Virus record (IMG/VR): IMGVR_UViG_3300027851_000109
Span: 1 to 27,557 of that record
Length of the DNA stretch: 27,557 bases
Strand: one strand, 5' to 3'
Origin: a virus
The translations under genes and the position numbers were made by a program. Shown in pieces: positions 646 to 4,785 of this stretch (position 1 is the stretch's first letter; every line of letters begins with the position of its first letter). The notes beneath the pieces were generated by a model. The model did no database searches. It was not told the DNA's origin and saw only the letters and a program-made list of their open reading frames with translations.

Positions 646-1440
646 CTAAGCCCTGCTTATCCTGCCCACGACGCGGCCAACGATACGGAACTCCGTTGCA
701 GCTCGCTCGTCGGGGTGCTCCCGATCCGCTTCCGAAATGACCAGATATCGAGGTGGGTAGGAGCTAGTCACCTTGCGCAGCGTCTTGGCCTGAAACACCG
801 TGCCGCCGTCATCGATCAGATAGATCGCATCCCCAATCCACTCGTTCTGCGACACGTCTACAATCAGCCTGTCGCCTTCGTTCAGGCGCGGCTCCATCGA
901 ATGCCCGATCACCGGCACGATGATCGTGGCGCTCGGCTGGCCGCCCAGACCGTGCCGCAGGTAACTCGGGGGGATCACCCACTCGGCTGCCACGGCATGA
1001 CCGCTGGCGATGCCATTGGACTGAATGCGCGCCACGCCGGAATCGACAATCTGCCCTAACCCAGCGCCACCCTTAGCCATCGTCTCGGGCTGGCTACCGG
1101 GCAGCTTTCCATGGAACACAACGTTCCCGTCAATTAGCGCCGCGTTGCCGACGCCGGGCTCATCCTCGAAACTGTCGATTTCATCTGGGGCAGGAGCGGC
1201 GGGGTCGTCGCTGGTGTATGTTAGGTCGCGCGGTGGCGGAGCATATAAGCCCGCTACCGTGGTCCCAAACAACGCTGCCAGGCTGTCCATATAGTCCGTG
1301 CTGGGCTCAGTCCCAGCCGTCCATCTCGACACATTGCTTTTGTCGGCGCCGGTGCCCGCGATCAGATCGGCGTTGGTCTTGCCGGTCGCCCGCATCCATT
1401 CGGCGATGAAGTGACGTTTTTTGCGCTTCGGTCTGGCCAT
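646..1440 (-). CDS. cI-like phage repressor, HTH plus S24/LexA-type peptidase domain
   Basis: 264 aa. Residues about 10-60 form an XRE-type helix-turn-helix (NADLIAGTGADKSNVSRW), followed by an acidic linker to about residue 105. The C-terminal half is a LexA/cI S24 domain: GHSMEPRLNEGDRLIVD holds the catalytic serine (Ser181), and VFQAKTLRK the lysine (Lys219). An Ala-Gly pair (126-127, in GGAGLGQ) is a possible self-cleavage site. Together these predict a RecA-sensitive repressor that keeps the prophage silent and is cleaved on DNA damage. I chose the start at MARPKRKKRH (1440); the reading frame stays open to 1554, but the upstream part is arginine- and threonine-rich shadow and runs into the cro-like gene. 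No Shine-Dalgarno precedes 1440, so a leaderless message, as for lambda cI, is possible. It heads the repressor-hicA-hicB operon. Confidence 0.9.
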   Translation of the reverse strand: MARPKRKKRHFIAEWMRATGKTNADLIAGTGADKSNVSRWTAGTEPSTDYMDSLAALFGTTVAGLYAPPPRDLTYTSDDPAAPAPDEIDSFEDEPGVGNAALIDGNVVFHGKLPGSQPETMAKGGAGLGQIVDSGVARIQSNGIASGHAVAAEWVIPPSYLRHGLGGQPSATIIVPVIGHSMEPRLNEGDRLIVDVSQNEWIGDAIYLIDDGGTVFQAKTLRKVTSSYPPRYLVISEADREHPDERAATEFRIVGRVVGRISRA

Positions 1441-1535: not shown

Positions 1536-1754
1536 ATGGCGAACACTTCCACACTCCAGCAGTACAGGGACGCGAACAAGATCAGCTTGGCCGCGTTCGC
1601 TAGCAAATTTGGCATCAACAAATCGACCGCCATGCGGTGGCAAAAGCGCGTCCCGGCTGACCGTGTGCAGGACGTGTCGGACATTACCGGCATCCCTCCG
1701 CACGAACTGCGCCCCGACGTGTTCCGCGCTCCCCAAGCCGAGGATGCAGCATGA
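1536..1754 (+). CDS. Cro/YdaS-like early repressor
   Basis: 72 aa, one helix-turn-helix domain. The segment ISLAAFASKFGINKSTAMRW is the DNA-binding motif, and the tail TGIPPHELRPDVF matches the YdaS/Cro-type regulators encoded divergently from cI in many prophages. Its expected role is to turn down the repressor promoter once lytic growth begins. I use the ATG at 1536 (MANTSTLQQYR); an upstream TTG/GTG extension to 1506 would run into the likely promoter. There is no Shine-Dalgarno, so the message may be leaderless. Its stop overlaps the next start as ATGA, placing it first in the early operon. Confidence 0.8.
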   Translation: MANTSTLQQYRDANKISLAAFASKFGINKSTAMRWQKRVPADRVQDVSDITGIPPHELRPDVFRAPQAEDAA

Positions 1755-2032
1755 CCAACGGCATCACAGACGAAGCCATTGCGGCCTATGCGACCGACCT
1801 CCTCGACAAAGAGGCGGACATCGAGACGCTGCAGAACGACAAGAAGGCAATCTACGCCAACCTCCGAGACGCCTACGGCAAGCGCGTGGCCGACGCGGTC
1901 AAGCTGGCCGTGAAGCGTCATCGCATGGACGCGGAGAAGTTGCAGGCGGCGGAAGAACTCGACGCCGAAGCAGAGCGAATTTTGGCCATCCTTCGCGCGC
2001 CGCGCGCCACGCGCACACGTGAGGCCGCATGA
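1751..2032 (+). CDS. GapR/DUF2312-like small DNA-associated protein
   Basis: 93 aa, almost entirely helical. The segment LQNDKKAIYANLRDAYGK followed by VKLAVKRHRMD and a final EELDAEAERILAIL helix follows the DUF2312 pattern (E-KK-I--D-----A---G-D-KA-R---R-R). The cellular prototype of that family, GapR of Caulobacter, binds overtwisted DNA as a coiled-coil clamp; the family is characteristic of Alphaproteobacteria. Here it is a divergent phage version, so its function is only inferred, perhaps helping phage DNA replication or transcription. It starts with an ATGA overlap on the cro-like stop and ends overlapping the next small ORF. Confidence 0.55.
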   Translation: MTNGITDEAIAAYATDLLDKEADIETLQNDKKAIYANLRDAYGKRVADAVKLAVKRHRMDAEKLQAAEELDAEAERILAILRAPRATRTREAA

Positions 2033-2139
2033 TGGACGCATTTGATCCCATCTCGCTTGTGGTCGCCGTCACCGCCTTTGTCTGGTTCTGCACCTACGTC
2101 AGTGGCGTGCGTCTCAGCGACTTCAGGGGGCGCAAGTGA
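2029..2139 (+). CDS. Tiny single-span membrane peptide
   Basis: 36 aa: MMDAFDP, then a hydrophobic stretch (ISLVVAVTAFVWFCTYVSGV), then a short basic tail ending FRGRK. This is one transmembrane helix with a positive cytoplasmic end. The ATG overlaps the preceding stop (ATGATGG), and its own stop overlaps the GTG of the next ORF (GTGA), so translation looks coupled on both sides. I do not recognise a family. Peptides of this kind in early phage operons are often exclusion or host-modulating factors, but nothing in the sequence shows that here. Confidence 0.5.
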   Translation: MMDAFDPISLVVAVTAFVWFCTYVSGVRLSDFRGRK

Positions 2140-2234
2140 AGTGGCTCGTGATCCTCGGCATGGTGGCGATAGAGCCGATCATTCTCCTCGCGGGCGTTGC
2201 TCTGGTGCTGACCGTAGCGGCGGCGCTGGCATGA
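2136..2234 (+). CDS. Tiny single-span membrane peptide, GTG start
   Basis: 32 aa, nearly all hydrophobic after KWLV, with only Glu13 interrupting (GMVAIEPIILLAGVALVLTV). It begins with GTG overlapping the previous stop in GTGA. It lies immediately upstream of the two stem-loops with CCTCC-rich loops, so those loops would form its 3' untranslated region. No family recognised; support is coding-style overlap and a clean membrane segment only. Confidence 0.45.
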   Translation: MKWLVILGMVAIEPIILLAGVALVLTVAAALA

Positions 2235-2244
2235 CCCATTCCCA

Positions 2245-2318
2245 TTCAGCAGCAGCCGTCTCCCTCCCGGTAGCGCTGAAAGGCCGGGGCGCGGGCCTCC
2301 TCCCCCCGCGTTCCGGCC
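2245..2318 (+). ncRNA. Cuckoo (CcsR)-like twin stem-loop RNA with anti-Shine-Dalgarno loops
   Basis: Two hairpins separated by one base. Hairpin 1: TTCAGC (2245-2250) pairs with GCTGAA (2275-2280), then an inner GCCG/CGGT stem presents the loop TCTCCCTCC (2259-2267). Hairpin 2: a 14-bp stem (2282-2295 with 2305-2318, two G-U pairs) presents exactly CCTCCTCCC (2296-2304). Alphaproteobacterial cuckoo RNAs, for example CcsR1-4 of Rhodobacter, are defined by paired stem-loops exposing CCUCCUCCC-type loops that can pair with ribosome-binding sites, and are often processed from the 3' end of a small-protein message. Here the element follows two tiny ORFs in the same way. The structure is read directly; that it is expressed or processed as a small RNA is inference. 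Confidence 0.55.
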
Positions 2319-2348: not shown

Positions 2349-2401
2349 GTACTGACGGCACCGAGCGTGGGGCGCGCTCGTGGGGTTCGTGCCGCCAGTA
2401 C
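2349..2401 (+). ncRNA. Long RNA hairpin upstream of the early terminator
   Basis: GTACTG-A-CGGCAC (2349-2361) pairs with GTGCCG-C-CAGTAC (2389-2401), 12 of 13 positions, and inside it CGAGCG (2362-2367) pairs with CGCTCG (2375-2380). A further short stem CCTGC/GCAGG (2402-2406 with 2422-2426) abuts its base. No ORF across this stretch looks convincingly coding. Placed between the anti-SD-loop hairpins and an intrinsic terminator, it could be part of the same small RNA, or an RNA that controls read-through, as the put RNAs of phage HK022 do. There is no recognisable put sequence. Confidence 0.4.
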
Positions 2402-2477
2402 CCTGCTGTTGCTGACCACTTGCAGGACTGGCCGCGCAAGCGGGCTGGGATGGTCACCTCCAACTGTTCCCGAACTG

Positions 2478-2510
2478 GGGGCGGGCTTCGTAGTGCTCGC
2501 CCCGCTTTTC
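2478..2510 (+). terminator. Intrinsic terminator inside the early operon (tR1-like position)
   Basis: GGGGCGGGC (2478-2486) pairs with GCTCGCCCC (2495-2503) over nine positions with one G-U pair and an 8-base loop. TTTT follows two bases after the stem (2506-2509). It lies after the cro-like gene, GapR-like gene and small peptides and before the methyltransferase block, the same logical place as lambda tR1. Downstream early genes would then need read-through or antitermination. Confidence 0.6.
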
Positions 2511-2633: not shown

Positions 2634-3020
2634 ATGTCCGAGACCAAAGAGGAGAAGCGCGAAATGTCTGAGTTGGCATTCGCTTCCAATGCCATGCGCC
2701 AGCGGATTGCACCGCCCGCGCTTGGCTCAGTCAAACAACGGATCAACCGGGCAGCGGCGGCGCTCCGGTGGTCTGCAAGCCGTACCAGGGATGTCTGGTA
2801 CGCCGACCCTCGGGTCAGCATCAAGCCGCGAGAACTGCGCAAAATCGAGGAGATCGCAGGTGTCGCCTATGGACGAAAAGAACTCAGCGAGATCGACGCC
2901 ATCATCTCCCGAGCCGACGCTCTCCTCATGGGCACGGATCCGGATTTCGTTCGCCCGTTCCTTGCTGCGCTCCGCGCGCTGGCTGGCCATCCTGATCGCA
3001 CCGGAACTGAGGGGGAGTGA
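2634..3020 (+). CDS. Unknown early protein, possibly winged-helix-like
   Basis: 128 aa. After a charged N-terminus, the segment QRINRAAAALRWSASRTRDVWYADPRVSIKPRELRKIEEIAG is reminiscent of small alphaproteobacterial phage proteins that look like DNA-binding helix-turn-helix proteins, but I cannot name a family. The remainder is helical and acidic (RKELSEIDAIISRADALLMG). I place the start at ATG 2634 with GGAG nine bases upstream; ATG 2664 (MSELAFASN) also has an AGAGGAG at good spacing, giving 118 aa. The frame is open further upstream to 2328, but only through the structured region. The stop is directly followed by the methyltransferase ATG. Confidence 0.6.
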   Translation: MSETKEEKREMSELAFASNAMRQRIAPPALGSVKQRINRAAAALRWSASRTRDVWYADPRVSIKPRELRKIEEIAGVAYGRKELSEIDAIISRADALLMGTDPDFVRPFLAALRALAGHPDRTGTEGE

Positions 3021-3590
3021 ATGACAGTCGTCGCTTCGAACTACGCCCGCAAGGAAAACGACCTGTACCAGACCGAACCTTGGGCGACCGAGGCGCTGCT
3101 GAGGCACGTCAACGTCGCAGGCAAGACGGTTTGGGAGCCAGCGGCTGGCAATCACCTCATCGCTGACGTGTTGCGCGAAGCCGGGGCAAGCGTCATCACC
3201 AGCGACATTGCCGTCTATGATCGACGGCATGACGCGGAAGTCAACTTTCTTGAGCCGCGTTTCGCCTACAAGAACCCGAAGCATGACGCCATCATCACCA
3301 ACCCGCCCTACGGCAAGGGCAACCGGGATGCCGTGCGCTTCGCTGAACTAGCTCTGGAACGTTGCGACGGAATCGTTGCGCTGCTGCTGACGGCCAAGTT
3401 CGATTTCGGCAAGACGCGCCGTCACCTCTTCGCGGACAATCCGCGGTTCTGGGCCAAGATCGCGCTTGTCGACCGCATCCAATGGTTCCCCGGTGAAAGC
3501 AGCGGGACCGAGGATCATGCTTGGTACGTCTGGACGCCAGACGATCCGCCGCACGCTGGCCCGCATATGTTCTGGGAGGCGCGTCAGTGA
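3021..3590 (+). CDS. DNA adenine methyltransferase with NPPY motif
   Basis: 189 aa. TVWEPAAGNHLIADVLREAG (about residues 36-55) is the S-adenosylmethionine-binding motif I, SDIAVYDR the motif II acidic strand, and IITNPPYGKGN (about 91-101) the catalytic NPPY motif of amino-methyltransferases acting on N6 of adenine (or N4 of cytosine). No target-recognition domain or partner endonuclease is visible, so this is a solitary phage methylase. It may protect phage DNA from host restriction or mark it for regulation. GGGGGAG precedes the ATG, which abuts the previous stop. A second, unrelated methylase follows 130 bp downstream. Confidence 0.85.
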   Translation: MTVVASNYARKENDLYQTEPWATEALLRHVNVAGKTVWEPAAGNHLIADVLREAGASVITSDIAVYDRRHDAEVNFLEPRFAYKNPKHDAIITNPPYGKGNRDAVRFAELALERCDGIVALLLTAKFDFGKTRRHLFADNPRFWAKIALVDRIQWFPGESSGTEDHAWYVWTPDDPPHAGPHMFWEARQ

Positions 3591-3721
3591 CCTCCCACCC
3601 CGCCAAGCCCGGCCGCGTCGTGTCCCGTAAGACACCCCACCGGATAACGACGAGGCTTCCCCACAAGTTTGCCCTCGTCACAGCCCAGCTCCGCGAAGAG
3701 ATGAAGGCGAGGGGACGATGA
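3587..3721 (+). CDS. Small basic protein between two methyltransferase genes
   Basis: 44 aa, starting with GTG at 3587 (GTGA overlap with the preceding stop, GGGAGG upstream) and ending in ATGA with the next gene. The sequence is very basic (KPGRVVSRKTPHRITTRLPHK) with a short C-terminal helix (LVTAQLREEMKARGR). The overlaps on both sides support translation. No family recognised. Confidence 0.5.
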   Translation: MTSHPAKPGRVVSRKTPHRITTRLPHKFALVTAQLREEMKARGR

Positions 3722-4785
3722 GCCTAGACGCGCCCTTTCCTTGGTTCGGCGGCAAGTCGGCCGTAGCTGCCCAGGTATGGGCGGCGCTCGGCAACGTGTC
3801 GCACTATGTCGAGCCGTTCTTTGGCTCCGGTGCTGTGCTCCTGCAGCGCCCGCACGTGGCAAGATTTGAAACGGTCAACGACCTAGACGGCATGGTCGCA
3901 AACTTCTGGCGCGCAACCAAGGCCGCTCCCGATGATGTTGCCGAGTATGCGGACTGGCCGTGCAACGAGGCTGATCTTCATGCGCGGCATCTGTGGCTTG
4001 TAGGCCAGCGCGAGCGGCTTACGGAGCGACTAATGGGGGACGCGGAATGGTTTGACGCGAAGGCGGCTGGGTGGTGGCTTTGGGGTGCCTGCAACTGGAT
4101 TGGTTCTGGCTGGTGCAGCGGCAAAGGCCCTTGGATTTCAGTTGACGGGGTGATGACGGACTCGCGCCAGCTACCACACCTATCCTCGGCTCAGGGCGTC
4201 AACCGCAAGCTACCACACCTATCCTCGGCTCAGGGCGTCAACCGCAAGCTACCACACCTATCCGAGGGTCGGGGCGTCAACCGCAAGCTACCACACCTAT
4301 CCGAGGGTCGGGGCGTCAACCGCAAGCTCTTTATAACCGAATGGGTTGCAGCGTTGTCGGATAGGTTGCGTGACACGCGCATTGCCTGCGGAGACTGGGC
4401 GCGCGTCACAGGCCCGGCCGTCCTTGACGCAGGCGGTGGCATGACTGGTGTGTTCCTCGACCCGCCATATGATCAGGCAGGGCGCGCAGACGTTTACGCG
4501 ATGGAGTCGCCGGTAGCAGGCGAAGTGCGCAAGTGGTGCGCTGAGAACGGCAGCAATCCAACCATTCGGATTGTGCTTGCAGGCTACGATGGCGAGCACA
4601 ACGAACTTCAGGCGCTCGGCTGGCAAGTTTTCGAGTGGAAGGCGCGCGGCGGCTACGGGTCGCAGGGCGAAGGGCGGGGGCGGGATAACGCCAGTCGCGA
4701 AAGGCTGTGGCTATCGCCCAACTGCATGGGGGTAGCGCCAGACCTGTTTAGCGAGCCCGCAAAGCAGGAGGCGCTGTCGCTATGA
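3718..4785 (+). CDS. D12-class (Dam-like) N6-adenine DNA methyltransferase with internal 13-residue repeats
   Basis: 355 aa. The N-terminus FPWFGGKSAVA carries the D12-class motif I (normally F-W-GGK), YVEPFFGSGAV follows, and VFLDPPYDQ (about residue 245) is the DPPY catalytic motif. The enzyme transfers a methyl group to adenine N6. In the middle, residues 152-203 are four tandem 13-residue repeats, two LPHLSSAQGVNRK and two LPHLSEGRGVNRK, encoded by 39-bp DNA repeats at 4171-4326. Similar LPHL...GV repeats occur in phage methylases of this type, so they are probably a variable loop near the target-recognition region and not damage. Starts and stops overlap neighbours as ATGA on both sides. 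Confidence 0.9.
   Translation: MSLDAPFPWFGGKSAVAAQVWAALGNVSHYVEPFFGSGAVLLQRPHVARFETVNDLDGMVANFWRATKAAPDDVAEYADWPCNEADLHARHLWLVGQRERLTERLMGDAEWFDAKAAGWWLWGACNWIGSGWCSGKGPWISVDGVMTDSRQLPHLSSAQGVNRKLPHLSSAQGVNRKLPHLSEGRGVNRKLPHLSEGRGVNRKLFITEWVAALSDRLRDTRIACGDWARVTGPAVLDAGGGMTGVFLDPPYDQAGRADVYAMESPVAGEVRKWCAENGSNPTIRIVLAGYDGEHNELQALGWQVFEWKARGGYGSQGEGRGRDNASRERLWLSPNCMGVAPDLFSEPAKQEALSL
4171..4326 (+). repeat. In-frame tandem repeat, 4 x 39 bp, inside the D12 methyltransferase
   Basis: Units start at 4171, 4210, 4249 and 4288. Units 1 and 2 are identical to each other, as are units 3 and 4; the two pairs differ only in the middle (tcctcggctcag versus tccgagggtcgg). Because 39 is a multiple of three, copy-number change keeps the reading frame. 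The pairwise identity suggests recent duplication or ongoing homogenisation. Confidence 0.97.

Follow-up and report, generated by a model that had tools for sequence, protein, structure and literature searches.

A cuckoo-like tandem hairpin RNA conserved in phages of rhizobia and related bacteria

Many phages of rhizobia and related bacteria carry a conserved RNA structure of two adjacent hairpins, in which the stems are rewritten from phage to phage and the shape is retained. In the IMG/VR virus record analysed here (27,557 bases, the whole of which is referred to as the window), the phage is of the temperate type and the hairpins sit in an untranslated stretch within its rightward early operon. 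We consider it fairly probable that they belong to a cuckoo-like structured RNA which phages of Hyphomicrobiales (Rhizobiales) make from such a stretch of the early operon, and whose CUCC loops would silence messages in trans. Regulation in alphaproteobacteria relies heavily on small RNAs directed against the Shine-Dalgarno (SD) sequence, and a version in a phage early operon would, if the proposal is correct, let the virus act directly on the initiation of translation.

Two hairpins in an untranslated stretch

The window has a repressor/Cro-type early region with a divergent CI-like/Cro-like gene pair. Downstream of the Cro-like gene come a 93-aa ORF and two tiny hydrophobic ORFs, followed by about 400 nt without a convincing gene up to the phrog_27989 gene. 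The features of this region are:

646-1440, minus strand: CI-like S24 repressor (phrog_4, 6.5e-26)
1536-1754, plus strand: Cro-like HTH regulator, opening the rightward early operon (phrog_35, 1.1e-6)
2032-2139, plus strand: tiny ORF 1, 35 aa, hydrophobic N-terminus, coding-like codon-position G+C
2136-2234, plus strand: tiny ORF 2, 32 aa, hydrophobic, stopping 10 nt 5' of the first hairpin
2245-2280, plus strand: hairpin H1, 12 bp with small internal loops, loop UCUCCCUCC at 2259-2267 (evidence: fold, relatives)
2282-2318, plus strand: hairpin H2, 14-bp stem, loop CCUCCUCCC at 2296-2304 (evidence: fold, relatives, CcsR1/ar14 matches)
2353-2455, plus strand: second conserved RNA motif of the type CAGCACCAGAC..CCTGCTGCTG..GCAGGACTGG..GGGCTGGGAT, covariance model R1 (66.5 bits, the window being among the six training sequences of the model)
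2478-2509, plus strand: intrinsic-terminator-like hairpin of 9 bp (2478-2503) with a CTTTTC tail
2634-3020, plus strand: phrog_27989 gene of unknown function, 3' of the RNA region (1.7e-46)
3021-3590, plus strand: DNA methyltransferase, used as bait for relatives (phrog_799, 1.2e-49)

The segment 2240-2325 folds at -44.6 kcal/mol (z -5.2), a stability reached by none of 200 shuffled sequences, and its MFE and centroid structures are concordant. A single unpaired base (2281) separates H1 from H2. The coordinates, loop positions, one-base gap and 14-bp stem given in an earlier note on this DNA all match the computed fold, and the two tiny ORFs that it placed 5' of the hairpins are present and both hydrophobic. 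Its description of paired anti-SD loops was borne out for H2, the only loop with the exact CCUCCUCCC, and has to be amended for H1, in which the loop is UCUCCCUCC and not the exact motif. No U tract is found 3' of H2; the terminator-like hairpin further downstream, with an 8-nt loop UUCGUAGU, probably marks where the first early transcript stops.

A mechanical ORF (2231-2671) spans the hairpins. Its G+C content at the three codon positions is flat (0.68/0.60/0.64), as it is over the stretch 2236-2632, unlike most surrounding genes; the typical values for genes of the window are about 0.65/0.45/0.75. The ORF had no Pfam or PHROG match and its sequence is not conserved among relatives. Owing to this flat composition and the lack of homologs and conservation, a coding explanation was rejected.

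As a separate observation, a predicted DNA adenine methyltransferase ORF further along (3718-4785) contains, at 4166-4335 of the window, a repeat of about 42 bp (QLPHLS..GVNRK) in four nearly identical copies.

Conservation in related phages and larger structured RNAs

Relatives were fetched by means of the methyltransferase and the phrog_27989 protein, which gave about 100-105 loci from IMG/VR, bacterial genomes and named phages, and these 1.22 Mb of related loci were scanned by a fold-based search for two adjacent hairpins with CCUCC-type loops. Tandem hairpins were found in 31 of about 105 loci, representing 25 distinct sequences, with 35 registers on the coding (plus) strand against 2 on the minus strand, while 12 dinucleotide-shuffled copies of the whole locus set contained 0-2 tandem pairs each (mean 0.4). 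The observation is thus far above chance. The stems and loops, whose loss in homologs the earlier note had named as evidence against its own proposal, are kept across the 25 distinct elements: stem positions mostly take 4-6 standard pair types and the loops retain the CUCC core. Loop 2 is mostly CUCCUCCC; loop 1 is variable and drifts, and the motif is gone from it in some phages, such as RHph_N28_2 (no CUCC) and locus L049 (a C-rich loop without CUCCC). The gap between the hairpins is 0-4 nt, mostly 1-2 nt, and the plus strand folds more stably than the minus strand in 15 of 25 elements, a difference that does not decide between the strands. Since a MAFFT alignment of the whole tandem hairpins misaligns the stems, no covariance model of the hairpins was made.

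The free stems and conserved loops also bear on whether the hairpins might act on RNA polymerase, as put-like antitermination or terminator-type structures in which the loops would be incidental. The arrangement of two stem-loops one base apart resembles the put sites of phage HK022, and a terminator is located downstream in the window. The put RNA of HK022, however, has a conserved stem and bulge sequence that is bound by RNA polymerase, whereas the phage element conserves its loops and not its stems, the reverse of what polymerase binding requires, and H2 is not followed by a U tract. We therefore regard an action on the polymerase as very unlikely.

The usual neighbours of the element are a small, often hydrophobic ORF on one side and a gene of about 110-150 aa on the other, the latter, in the cases tested, being phrog_27989, phrog_35370 or phrog_26665. 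The element is missing from about 70 of the loci fetched and is thus not essential to these phages. A relaxed scan of these loci for decayed copies gave, with few exceptions, little new, indicating that the element is mostly either present or absent. Other phages with the same methyltransferase carry a lone hairpin with a CUCC loop followed by an intrinsic terminator (L042 at 4207, L045 at 3609, L048 at 4628, L050 at 4965, L052 at 1301, L054 at 4666 and L076 at 2929).

The earlier note treated the hairpins on their own; in many phages they turned out to be part of a larger structured RNA. In a first class (L058-L079, L009, L015 and L087) a conserved run of hairpins lies directly 3' of the tandem pair. 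In the core of this run (H3-H5; L079 3667-3811 and relatives), 93.5% of cells are paired and 13 of 25 pairs have changes on both sides, with a covariation score of 0.353 compared to 0.154 when shuffled and at most 0.125 when slid, a value that none of 500 shuffles reached. Core and flanking hairpins together measure about 400 nt. A GGGAGGG stretch in hairpin H6 of this class, tried as a partner of the loops in cis, pairs with them on paper and is not conserved in L087, L009 and L015; it was rejected.

A model of the H3-H5 core (R2) was built with the tandem hairpins left out. It matched four loci outside its training set (L040, L049, L086 and L103), and a search of 298 genomes from the family of Sinorhizobium glycinis turned up matches in eight. 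In each of these 12 new copies the core is immediately preceded by a pair of adjoining hairpins whose loops are rich in C and U, with fold z-scores between -3.6 and -6.6; L086 and L049 both have a C-rich first loop. Control stretches 515-600 nt upstream of the new copies were unremarkable except in L150 (z -2.6). That the hairpins formed by chance within a G+C-rich coding frame, which the spanning ORF could suggest, is given practically no credence: conservation across distant phage lineages already refutes it, and the plus-strand excess, the shuffled controls, the flat codon-position G+C, the free stems and the independent test with R2 all stand against it.

The window represents a second class with a different conserved motif, that of model R1 (2353-2455), for which no Rfam match was obtained. 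The R1 motif adjoins tandem hairpins in other phages too, lying 5' of them in L020, L031, L041 and L097 and 3' in the window, and this difference in order shows that the parts behave as modules. Among 136 genomes from the family of Devosia LC5, R1 matched six, five of them new; clear tandem anti-SD hairpins accompany the motif in three of the five and at least one hairpin in another, and in the last no recognisable tandem hairpins were found beside it. Both cores look like new RNA families.

Relation to the bacterial cuckoo RNAs

The definition of the cuckoo family applied here follows in part two publications (PMC10746234; PMC10253847). At gathering thresholds, Rfam had no match in the window, and none of 11 related loci matched a cuckoo family. 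The covariance-model search proposed in the earlier note nevertheless aligned the window element end to end with both cuckoo models, at 17.4 bits (E 0.0066, per record) for ar14 (RF02344) and 17.2 bits (E 0.0015, per record) for CcsR1 (RF02791), the matches spanning 2241-2354; the gathering scores are 58.8 and 65.3 bits, respectively. In 26 of 32 records searched whole, ar14 had a match with an E-value of at most 1, usually coinciding with the element. The best phage element reached 50.9 bits with ar14 (E 8e-11) and none attained the gathering score, and with CcsR1 the best was 35.1 bits, also below gathering. For both models the element was the best match in most of the carrier records searched. 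The E-values of the carriers are conditional, as most records were picked for having the hairpins, whereas those of the window are unaffected. When the whole genome of Rhizobium alvei was searched, the prophage element was an ar14 match of 32.0 bits (E 7e-4).

Cuckoo RNAs have two to four adjacent hairpins with variable stems and with CCUCCUCCC in each loop, and the window element shares part of this architecture, with two hairpins 1 nt apart, free stems (mostly 4-6 pair types per position) and one exact loop. As in ar14/NfeR1 of Hyphomicrobiales, adjacent hairpins with CCUCCUCCC-type loops and free stems occur in the same host group; unlike ar14/NfeR1, the phage element has two hairpins and not three, lies in a phage operon, is often fused to another structured RNA and scores below the cut-off. 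The third hairpin of ar14 is a terminator with an anti-SD loop, and the loop of the window terminator is not of this kind. With CcsR1-4 of Rhodobacter the element has in common hairpins with CCUCCUCCC-type loops, a small-protein gene upstream and a terminator at the end. CcsR1 is cotranscribed with a DUF1127 gene (ccaF1) in the CIN1 locus, however, and no DUF1127 match was obtained in the two ORFs 5' of the window hairpins. The resemblance to CcsR that the earlier note proposed is upheld by the covariance models, and falls short in the scores below gathering and in the DUF1127 partner. Because of the sub-threshold ar14 and CcsR1 scores, the missing anti-SD third hairpin and the lack of a recognised DUF1127 neighbour, we describe the element as a cuckoo-like phage RNA, a variant that is not classed as a member of ar14 or CcsR.

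The earlier note knew of no described phage member, and likewise no link between phages and cuckoo, CcsR or NfeR1 RNAs was found in the literature searched, mostly open-access papers; none of the three appears in a 2025 review of phage sRNAs. The element is a genuine and apparently undescribed phage-borne relative of an established bacterial RNA family. The prophage sRNAs of E. coli, AgvB among them, are also phage-encoded RNAs that enter the small-RNA network of the host (PMC4104026), but AgvB is unrelated in sequence and host and imitates the mRNA on which a host sRNA acts, while the phage element itself bears an sRNA-type seed.

In the host genomes of the prophages, ar14 has as many as nine matches per genome, the majority of which exceed the cut-off in rhizobial genomes, and the phage loops copy the host motif. 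This raises the question of whether the element could be a decoy that titrates a host factor binding cuckoo RNAs (an RNA-binding protein, for example a DUF1127 protein similar to CcaF1, or else RNase E or the 30S ribosomal subunit), or whether it might compete for targets with the ar14/CcsR RNAs of the host. CcaF1 is indeed reported to promote the maturation of CcsR RNAs by RNase E (PMC10253847). In contrast, NfeR1 has no known loop-specific factor and its chaperone is unknown (PMC10746234), and we find a decoy role rather improbable.

Proposed action and carriers

The most likely role, in our analysis, is that of a UTR-borne anti-SD regulator acting in trans, and the phage RNA probably impedes the translation of selected messages. 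Once the phage has infected a cell or been induced, the hairpin RNA would be transcribed together with the early genes, up to a transcript end predicted at the terminator (2478-2509). RNase E, which cuts CcsR1-4 from the 3' UTR of a small-protein mRNA (PMC8625941), may also trim the phage RNA. By analogy with NfeR1 and CcsR1-4, the CUCC loops would then pair in trans with ribosome-binding sites of the GGAGG type on host or phage messages and lower the translation of these targets; the same motif in NfeR1, the three loops of which are redundant, pairs with the ribosome-binding region of ntrB and blocks translation (PMC10746234). Predicted pairing of the loops with the ribosome-binding sites of the window itself follows ordinary SD strength and is strongest at the methyltransferase start (3021); it is not taken as evidence of a target.

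Control in cis is the main rival to this proposal, since in some phages (L183, L184, L189, L190, L191, L210 and L216) only about 5-20 nt separate H2 from the following start codon. Here the hairpins would form an intercistronic element that controls how the messages of neighbouring phage genes are translated, degraded or processed, for example by sequestering the SD of the downstream gene or shielding the upstream 3' end. They are always on the coding strand between early genes, and the structured RNA of the first class extends up to the SD of the next gene, as such a role might predict. The distance from the hairpins to the next gene nevertheless ranges from about 10 to 320 nt, the R1 motif can lie on either side of the hairpins, the loops showed no conserved partner in cis resembling an SD, and host RNAs with the same loops act in trans (PMC10746234). 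Control in cis thus appears unlikely to us, though it deserves serious consideration.

A broader form of the proposal for action in trans is advanced more tentatively. Many Hyphomicrobiales phages may make an early structured RNA of about 250-400 nt with the anti-SD hairpin pair at its 5' end, resetting which messages ribosomes choose, the hairpins being swappable modules on at least two cores and either taken from, or convergent with, the cuckoo RNAs of the host.

The assignment to phages made in the earlier note agrees with the origin of the window in a virus record and with seven named carriers, namely Sinorhizobium phage phiLM21 and Rhizobium phages RHph_Y25, RHph_I1_23, RHph_TM3_3_3, RHph_N28_2, RHph_N2 and RHEph18, the last counted from BLAST similarity only. 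As phiLM21 is known to be inducible, by mitomycin C (PMC5537653), the idea is testable now. A pattern search of IMG/VR in the strict form CCTCCTCCC-N22-46-CCTCCTCCC extended the range of carriers, with tandem hairpins in 37 of 79 newly fetched contigs inspected among the matches listed; about a dozen of the 37 are ar14-like triples and possibly host flanks. Viral contigs L162, L165, L195, L236 and others have such triple hairpins with a terminator, which may be prophage cargo or host flank.

In the named phages, annotated hypothetical genes lie over or directly beside the RNA region (L104 6488-6682, L281 1044-1286, L282 917-1195 and L283 917-1183), three of them on the minus strand, and are probably spurious. 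Matches to other RNA families were also observed: Y RNA-like (YrlA, RF02553) matches below the cut-off in RHph_I1_23 (L105 10081-10143, 39.4 bits) and RHph_Y25 (L104 11053-11115, 34.9 bits), an abiF RNA match in viral contig L056 (8539-8574, 42.8 bits) and a full ar35 sRNA in viral contig L061 (10780-10916, 97.3 bits).
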